43,246 nucleotides of DNA from Gemmatimonadota bacterium (lineage in GTDB: Bacteria > Gemmatimonadota > Gemmatimonadetes > Gemmatimonadales > GWC2-71-9), in contig QHUU01000093.1 in assembly GCA_003222155.1 (NCBI GenBank), positions 1 to 43,246 of the forward strand. Direction: 5' to 3'. Within the stretch, counting starts at the first letter, position 1. The number at the start of each line of letters is the position of its first letter. The notes beneath the pieces were generated by a model, which did no database searches, was not told the DNA's origin, and saw only the letters and a program-made list of their open reading frames with translations. The position numbers and the translations under genes were made by a program. This document shows positions 37,131-38,198 of the stretch, one piece after another.

Positions 37131-38198
37131 TTACTCCTCCCCCGTGCGGGGTCCTCCATCCTTTTGTTGCTCGAGCCCCCCATTTACGCGCAGCTCGCCC
37201 ACGGTCTCGCCGCGCGTGTTCACCATGGGCCGGGCGGCGAGCGACACCGGTCGCGGCCGGAGCCCCAGCTGCTCCAACACGGCGGCCATCGCGAGCGCCG
37301 ATGCCACGGCATGGCCGTCGGCGACCTTGATGGCCACGCCCAATCCGTCCCGCGGCAGCACCGCGCAGTAGACGCCCTCGGCACCGACCTTGACGATCAC
37401 GCGGCCAGGGTGGGCGCGCATCATCTCGGTACAAGGACGGCCGTCGCCGGCGAGGAGCTCGGGGTGGCGGAGCATGGCTTCGACAACGCGGAACGCGGAA
37501 GGTGGAACGCGGAACCGCACGTCGGCTTCTTTCGTGTAAGGACCCTCCACGGACTGTTCCGCGTTCCGCGTTCCCACTTCCGCGTTGGCCAATCTCGCGT
37601 ACGCGAGCGCCATGGCTCGCAGCGGGATCCCGAAGCACACTACCCCGCAGCCATCGGTCGCCGTGCGAATGTCGGCCGCCGCGACGTCCGTCCAGCGGGC
37701 GACTTCCCGCAGGCAGCGCTGCTGCACGGGATGCTCGGGACGGGTGTAGAACTGCGTGGGCCACCCGTGGTGGCGGGCGAGCGCCAGCATGCCGGCGTGC
37801 TTCCCCGAGCAATTCGAGTACACCGCCGTAAGCCGCAAGCCGCGAGTCGCGTAGTCTTGCGCGACGCGCTCTGAGAGCGGAGGATGAGGCCCGCACACCA
37901 GATCGCGCTCGCTGCAGCCGATCTTCCCGAGCAGCTCGCGCACGCGCGCCACCTGGCCCGGCTCGCTCGAGTGCGACGCGCACACCAGCGCCAGCTCCTC
38001 GCTCGTGAAGCTGAACCGATCGGCCGCCCCGTCTTCTACCAGCGGCAGCGCCTGGAACGGCTTCGCCGCCGAGCGCCAGAAGGTGACGAGGTCGGCGTCG
38101 CCGGTGCGCGCGACCAGGCGCCCGGCCGCGTCCACCACCGCCGCGTGGACGTCGTGAACGGCTTCCACCATCCCTCCCCGCAGCTGTTCAACGCGCAT
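37131..38198 (-). CDS. Asparaginase (thermolabile, Rhizobium-type family) with an in-frame repeat insertion
   Basis: The 355-residue protein is related to the asparaginase II family of Rhizobium (PF06089-like), which hydrolyses asparagine to aspartate. Visible blocks are FWRSAAKPFQALPLVEDG, CASHSSEPGQVARVRELL, the conserved YSNCSGKHAGMLALARHHGWP, TDGCGVVCFGIPL and HPGRVIVKVGAEGVYC. Between AYARLA and VVEAMLRHPELL about 34 residues ([22 protein letters not shown]) are encoded by family A element A8. The insert follows a helix and probably forms a surface loop. ATG at 38198 has GGGAG at a good distance. Confidence 0.9.
   Translation of the reverse strand: MRVEQLRGGMVEAVHDVHAAVVDAAGRLVARTGDADLVTFWRSAAKPFQALPLVEDGAADRFSFTSEELALVCASHSSEPGQVARVRELLGKIGCSERDLVCGPHPPLSERVAQDYATRGLRLTAVYSNCSGKHAGMLALARHHGWPTQFYTRPEHPVQQRCLREVARWTDVAAADIRTATDGCGVVCFGIPLRAMALAYARLANAEVGTRNAEQSVEGPYTKEADVRFRVPPSAFRVVEAMLRHPELLAGDGRPCTEMMRAHPGRVIVKVGAEGVYCAVLPRDGLGVAIKVADGHAVASALAMAAVLEQLGLRPRPVSLAARPMVNTRGETVGELRVNGGLEQQKDGGPRTGEE
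37485..37587. repeat. Family A element A8 inside the asparaginase gene
   Basis: The left arm 37485-37517, a 35-nt core and right arm 37553-37587 are complete and inserted in frame. The core translates as SVEGPYTKEADV. Unlike rsmA, here the whole element seems foreign to the protein family. Confidence 0.9.

Follow-up and report, generated by a model that had tools for sequence, protein, structure and literature searches.

The asparaginase gene and its insert

The window, which is the whole stretch of DNA analysed here, is one contig of 43,246 bp from the draft genome of a soil bacterium, 3.45 Mb in 130 contigs. The near relatives of its asparaginase that bear a name are metagenome-derived Gemmatimonadetes genomes, which places the organism in the Gemmatimonadota. 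It contains a gene for an L-asparaginase II of the Rhizobium etli ReAV type that carries, in frame, a short element made of inverted heptamer repeats (Table 1). The assignment of the host gene is based on both the family profile and the catalytic residues. In a Pfam search, the open reading frame matches PF06089 with E=2.7e-114 over profile positions 1-321 of 322. The nearest solved structures are R. etli ReAV and ReAIV, and the ReAV structures match the protein by sequence (E 8.8e-64) and by fold (E 8e-33, TM 0.86). The ReAV residues that have been probed by mutation (S48, K51, C135, K138, H139, D187 and C189) correspond, by inspection, to S52, K55, C139, K142, H143, D191 and C193, all of which are invariant or near-invariant in the family alignment.

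Table 1. Heptamer-repeat elements of the window and the genes associated with them.
Feature	Position	Strand	Details
Short element	4577..4663		87 bp
Short element	15765..15866		102 bp; additional half-arm after it at 15875-15902
Short element	17190..17291		102 bp; additional partial arm at 17164-17184
Two inverted heptamer arms inside ksgA/rsmA (17929-18753, -)	18423..18557	-	flanking native codons LTIVHGDALQLDWHALV
Short element	22979..23056		78 bp
Short element	33872..33974		103 bp, 3' end of the dprA reading frame
Long form	36059..36491	-	433 bp, 28-nt heptamer arms around a PF05635 (IVP/S23 four-helix-bundle) gene
IVP (23S rRNA intervening sequence protein) domain	36132..36425	-	E 9.2e-14
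L-asparaginase II gene (R. etli ReAV type, PF06089)	37131..38225	-	364 aa, carries the element in frame
Inverted heptamer-repeat element	37485..37586	-	102 bp, 34 codons in frame; two 28-nt arms of four 7-mers each
Arm 1	37485..37512	+	AACGCGG AACGCGG AAGGTGG AACGCGG
Arm 2	37559..37586	+	CCGCGTT CCGCGTT CCCACTT CCGCGTT
Solitary arm	38233..38260	+	four heptamers, just upstream of the asparaginase gene

An earlier note, made from the DNA letters alone, had described a complete element at 37485-37587 that adds about 34 residues in frame and without a stop codon. Apart from its end, which was placed one base too far, this description holds, since the reading frame of 364 aa continues through all 34 codons. 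The hairpin predicted for the element with DNA parameters reaches -34.8 kcal/mol, as opposed to -22.6 +/- 2.6 in 200 shuffled sequences (z -4.6), none of which (0/200) is equally stable. At the protein level, an AlphaFold model built with 28 homologues (mean pLDDT 87.5) retains the helices on either side of the insert, at residues 202-224 and 242-253, and an overall fold that matches ReAV, while insert residues 221-239, with a pLDDT below 50, form a disordered loop between the two helices. The insert is thereby predicted to be a floppy surface loop. ReAV, representing the Rhizobium-type enzymes with which the earlier note had proposed an alignment, has a loop sequence of its own at this site, so the site is naturally variable, and a variable loop of the asparaginase family would explain why the insert is tolerated. 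Judging from the reading frame, the insert is probably translated rather than spliced; an example of a tryptic peptide predicted from it is NAEQSVEGPYTK.

A family of short elements in the genome

That the element belongs to a genuine repeat family, as the earlier note had proposed, is borne out by the whole genome. The core pattern AACGCGGAACN{20,50}GTTCCGCGTT has 68 matches per strand in the 3.45 Mb, nested matches counted, and 0 when it is read backwards as a control; since the pattern is its own reverse complement, the two strands give repeated matches. Delineation in the window and in 28 further stretches of the same genome yielded 37 element entries, two of which (17164/17190) are overlapping alternatives. 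Nearly all of them have arms of exactly 28 nt, inward of which there is usually AACAG, mirrored by CTGTT, and their loops mostly measure 17-56 nt. No target-site duplications are evident by eye among the delineated elements.

Most of these elements apparently lie in tight spacers, several of them directly after a stop codon. Five appear to be placed in coding sequence, according to codon-usage scores trained on the genes of the window and to the translations: those in the asparaginase gene, in ksgA/rsmA, in a ComF-like gene (L162), in an ImuB-like gene (L148) and in the linker of a double aldehyde dehydrogenase (L145); the names of these latter three genes were assigned by eye. Extra or solitary half-arms, some of a different heptamer type, are also found beside complete elements (at 15875-15902, 17164-17184 and 38233-38260 in the window, and close to the IVP gene at L064 and L055). 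The idea that the heptamer is specially designed to be stop-free was considered and rejected: units of the GCGG type contain no stop codon in any of the six frames, but the same is true of 78% of random heptamers with 70% GC, and there is thus no evidence of a designed heptamer.

Elements that carry an IVP gene

The long form in the window has the same ends as the asparaginase element and an interior of 377 nt. It fills the gap from the stop codon of a CMD-family gene to the start codon of obgE, a position that is kept in relatives. The same IVP gene is found downstream of the asparaginase gene in 20 of 24 loci, some of which are one genome under two identifiers, and the heptamers of its arms are, depending on the species, of type AAC, AAT, ATT or AGT (each followed by GCGG) or of the CGTGCGG type. 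Among the eight IVP genes of the own genome, one has arms of the AAC family of the window (family A), and the rest have other units and periods (8, 9 or 13) or none; the units of 8, 9 or 13 nt at L001, L002, L003, L004 and L005 are unrelated to family A.

The association of IVP genes with inverted arms extends to distant genomes. With an arm score defined by the best inverted repeat that one flank of each IVP gene forms with the other, and with untruncated loci only, inverted arms with scores of 14-51 enclose 55 of 64 IVP genes, in a sample composed of the best-scoring IVP genes in which some genera are repeated. A score of at least 14 is reached at 24/27 loci from the own genome and its relatives, at 17/22 loci across the phylum and at 14/15 plasmid loci (14 cyanobacterial, one from Azospirillum). 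Block-shuffled flanks of the phylum-wide and plasmid loci never score above 11; for random positions in the asparaginase loci, the 95th percentile is 12 and the highest score 18, so that a score in the range of 14-18 is not conclusive when taken singly. The arms are mostly tandem repeats, with a locus-specific unit and a period of 7 in the commonest case and of 8, 9 or 13 in others; a few (e.g. L129, L226 and L227) are inverted repeats in which no tandem period is clear. The Azospirillum locus is part of a 23S rRNA, with a match to RF02541 across the whole stretch, and has heptamer arms, which ties the classical intervening sequences (IVSs) of rRNA to the same arm architecture. Some cyanobacterial-plasmid IVP genes with tandem-repeat arms are situated inside CRISPR operons, flanked there by cas6 and cas4 or by cas10 and a cmr3-family gene (L232, L240 and L244).

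The loops of short elements show a slight similarity to the leaders of IVP elements (mean score 8.3 vs 7.5, p 0.005). This excess is weak, and the idea that short loops are clear remnants of the IVP leader was rejected; with a similarity so slight, descent of the short from the long form is not proven.

The asparaginase site in related genomes

The earlier note had stated that homologues normally pass directly from one helix to the next. This is so in repeat-free relatives, in which the AYxRL/I helix is separated from the following one by 9 residues in sister lineages and by 16 in other genera, but not in the eight closest orthologues from other genomes (G001, G002, G003, G005, G006, G008, G020 and G024), all of which have repeat-derived sequence there. 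Between the same anchors, repeat-free sister orthologues (L064 and L066-L069) have an empty site of 27 nt, compared with 120 nt here, and the net insert therefore amounts to 93 nt or 31 codons. Some relatives at the level of the order have 75-84 nt at the site with no clear repeats. Native sequence comparable to the insert in repeat-free genomes, which would have spoken against the earlier note's claim, thus occurs in some distant homologues as regards length, but not as regards sequence.

The heptamer found at the site varies among the orthologues: AACGCGG in the own genome, AATGCGG in G006, ATTGCGG in G001, G002 and G024, and AGTGCGG in G005, with a short array of a GGGAGCG unit in G003 and a degenerate one in G020. 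The length of the element varies with its type (90 vs 120 nt), and in the orthologues that were read the frame is kept and no stop codon occurs inside the insert. The same loop carries other inverted 7-mer repeats in another family of the order, GGGGCTA-like in G036 (L020) and GTGGGTG-like in G034 (L021). A recent arrival of a family A element is thereby contradicted: insertion at this site is old, as the same codon position is occupied across the genus and in some other genera of the family, where the repeats are built of other 7-mers.

In an asparaginase tree built without the insert, one supported clade (97/99) joins the own sequence (AAC) with those of G006 (AAT) and G001 (ATT), that is, three different types, and G005 (AGT) pairs with G002 (ATT; 84/89). 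Descent, therefore, does not predict the heptamer type. The empty sites in this tree have two filled ones scattered among them, so losses or regains must have occurred.

Rewriting of arms in place

The ksgA gene provides a second coding site, at which the arms enclose host DNA: the codons between them (LTIVHGDALQLDWHALV in the own genome) have equivalents in repeat-free homologues. The 5' arm stands in the same register in seven congeners, and the arms are of type AAC, ATT or AAT/AGT by species; in three of the seven, the stretch preceding the 3' arm is 15 nt shorter. The two arms of one species pair at 21-23 of 24 positions, with a mean of 22.3 as opposed to 19.1 for arms combined across species, a difference attained by 24 of 5040 permutations. 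Since the host codons between them are kept, the arms have been rewritten in situ; neither a simple transposition of a whole element nor simple excision and reinsertion explains this site. In G006 (L181/L196), ksgA lacks the 5' arm together with the conserved GDAL segment that elsewhere separates the arms, and RRLAAEV is joined to the 3' arm, which may reflect a deletion spanning the hairpin or else an artefact of assembly.

Congeners thus keep the element at three sites (asparaginase, ksgA and IVP/obgE) with different 7-mers, and both arms change together. The types follow the genome in which they are found. Genome-wide counts of adjacent heptamer pairs of type AAC/ATT/AAT/AGT are 148/7/1/0 in the own genome, 9/128/22/3 in G001 and 4/0/28/28 in G005, and the types at the three sites fit the counts of their own genome better than in any other of 40,320 permutations, a test in which the relatedness of the genomes remains and in which the asparaginase and IVP sites, being about 1 kb apart, are not fully independent.

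Origin and maintenance of the insert

The account that we favour, with a probability of roughly 0.7, is that the insert is a gene-less element of the IVS class, which entered a variable loop long ago and whose arms have been overwritten toward the type of the genome. According to it, the insert would be a short member of a class recognised so far as selfish intervening sequences of 23S rRNA, whose IVP form encodes the S23/IVP four-helix-bundle protein and may be the one from which the short form descends; its entry into the asparaginase, at a surface loop that is variable, would date from an ancestor of this group of Gemmatimonadota. It could survive there because it keeps the frame and has no stop codon, and the expected product of the gene is an enzyme enlarged by a disordered loop of about 31 residues. 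In both arms, the heptamers would then have been repeatedly overwritten in place by the type prevailing in the host genome, through gene conversion between elements and/or template switching in the hairpin, routes by which the arms would stay complementary to each other and specific to the genome. The empty sites found among filled ones weigh against this account, as they require losses or repeated gains, and so do the host sequence between the ksgA arms, the slightness of the similarity between short loops and IVP leaders, and the family A arms being present at one alone of the eight IVP genes of the own genome.

Local processes alone, namely slippage of 7-mers and template switching in hairpins, could in principle produce the same pattern without exchange between elements, if the match to the genome type were due to a mutational bias in common, or to selection exerted by a DNA- or RNA-binding protein that itself changes. 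The types are indeed one step apart (AAC-AAT-ATT/AGT), the ksgA arms hold their register and length, and local homogenisation of coding palindromes is seen in the mitochondria of Nematomorpha (PMC6649704). This explanation is nevertheless unlikely, as the agreement of the three sites with the genome-wide type surpasses every other assignment, with relatedness of the genomes remaining in the permutation, and some arms are mosaics in which runs of a second type resemble imported tracts: the asparaginase arm of G008 has one ATT unit followed by AAC units, and the IVP element of G002 has runs of AAT and of AAC.

Alternatively, the asparaginase site may be an insertion hot spot, at which old elements are lost and the current family of the genome reinserts. 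The interspersion of empty and filled sites, the dependence of element length on type and the presence of other 7-mer repeats in G034 and G036 are in line with this. However, reinsertion cannot switch the types in ksgA in identical register around host codons that are kept, and the asparaginase elements occupy an identical codon position in many species, which leaves the hot spot a rather improbable explanation.

A system of the REP/RAYT type, in which a Y1 transposase moves short palindromes, has a very low probability. Y1_Tnp genes are present in the own genome and in five congeners, but those of the congeners (L197-L200 and L204-L205) are flanked by REP-like palindromes of the CCCCGGGG and GCGCTTAAGCGC types rather than by heptamer arms, and G002, G007 and G008 are rich in heptamer arms while giving no Y1 match. 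A RAYT was rejected as the mover on this basis.

IVP is an Avd-like four-helix protein. An element removed from the RNA or protein (an intron or intein), or a cassette written by a reverse transcriptase as in a diversity-generating retroelement (DGR) with IVP in the role of Avd, draws on this likeness and on the excision of rRNA IVS RNAs by RNase III, but is scarcely credible given the kept frame and the stop-free insert, the fragmented RNA that known IVS excision leaves, and a search of 17 genomes in which no reverse transcriptase (RVT_1) domain was found in any (17/17), on which ground DGR-like overwriting was rejected. With rRNA IVSs as the nearest known elements, the same two facts, fragmentation and the lack of that domain in the 17 genomes, make splicing of the asparaginase insert appear unlikely.

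Beyond overwriting at single loci, a wider generalisation may be advanced tentatively, at somewhat less than even odds. IVP/S23 genes and their gene-less derivatives would form one widespread mobile class, whose ends are set by architecture (tandem heptamers in inverted orientation, as a rule four in each arm) rather than by sequence. A process acting in trans would keep overwriting the arms toward the prevailing type, even where they are split by host codons in conserved genes, so that each species would have a repeat 'dialect' rewritten genome-wide.

Relation to known elements

Cyanobacteria have heptanucleotide STRR repeats and a hairpin in the tRNA-Leu intron, in which 7-nt tandem units of several sequence classes form hairpins. 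By this general description they resemble the arms reported here, and IVP genes on cyanobacterial plasmids have heptamer arms. REP/REPIN sequences with their RAYTs, as well as MITEs, are likewise small, palindromic, present in many copies and mostly intergenic. They differ in that the Y1 genes here have REP-like palindromes of their own, and in that no target-site duplication is apparent by eye.

Among elements inside coding sequence, the Rickettsia palindromic elements (RPEs) are short palindromic repeats found in frame in unrelated protein genes (PMC10969869). The same placement is observed here in the asparaginase gene and, by inspection, in the ComF-like and ImuB-like genes and the aldehyde dehydrogenase linker. 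A heptamer architecture is not described for RPEs in the part of that literature available, and the present elements belong to a different phylum and are linked to IVP; moreover, RPE arms lose their identity over time, as cited in PMC6649704, whereas both arms are renewed together here. Palindromes in the coding genes of Nematomorpha mitochondria share the inverted repeats and the concerted evolution of the arms, but neither a dispersed family nor a repeat unit common to several loci is described for them (PMC6649704).

The closest resemblance is to the IVSs of 23S rRNA in Leptospira, Coxiella and others. IVS elements have been known for more than 25 years and their origin and function are unclear; their excision by RNase III gives fragmented RNA, and that of Coxiella has 428 nt, a 28-bp terminal stem, an S23p reading frame and heptameric repeats beside it (PMC4990558). 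The long form here is similar in length (433 vs 428 nt), in its 28-nt arms and in its PF05635 gene, and the heptameric repeats of Coxiella have a parallel in the heptamer arms around the IVP gene in Azospirillum 23S rRNA. The asparaginase element has 28-nt arms in agreement with the terminal stem of about 28 bp, and lacks the PF05635 protein that is encoded at 36059-36491. The differences are that the arms consist here of four tandem heptamers with a genome-specific unit, and that the elements lie outside rRNA: the long form is intergenic, between the CMD-family gene and obgE, and short gene-less forms are found inside protein genes such as that of the asparaginase.

Palindromes in frame and IVS elements are, therefore, already known kinds. 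Not found in the literature searched is their combination, that is, heptamer arms linked to IVP outside rRNA and in protein genes, with both arms rewritten in concert and in a genome-specific way; nor did the searches yield an account of IVP genes flanked by such arms elsewhere than in rRNA, which is weak evidence of novelty, as most subscription papers were outside the coverage. The comparison also accounts for tracts resembling NAERGTR/FRVPRSA and IADCGLR/PQSAIRN in proteins predicted from such genomes, as hairpin arms read in translation. The orthologous sites, with different types at the same codon position in many species, offer a natural experiment on the concerted evolution of dispersed repeats under coding constraint. 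Taken as a whole, the comparison suggests that the IVS elements of rRNA are one visible corner of a larger class, located between genes as well as inside protein genes, and provided with a simple structural signature by which it can be searched for.
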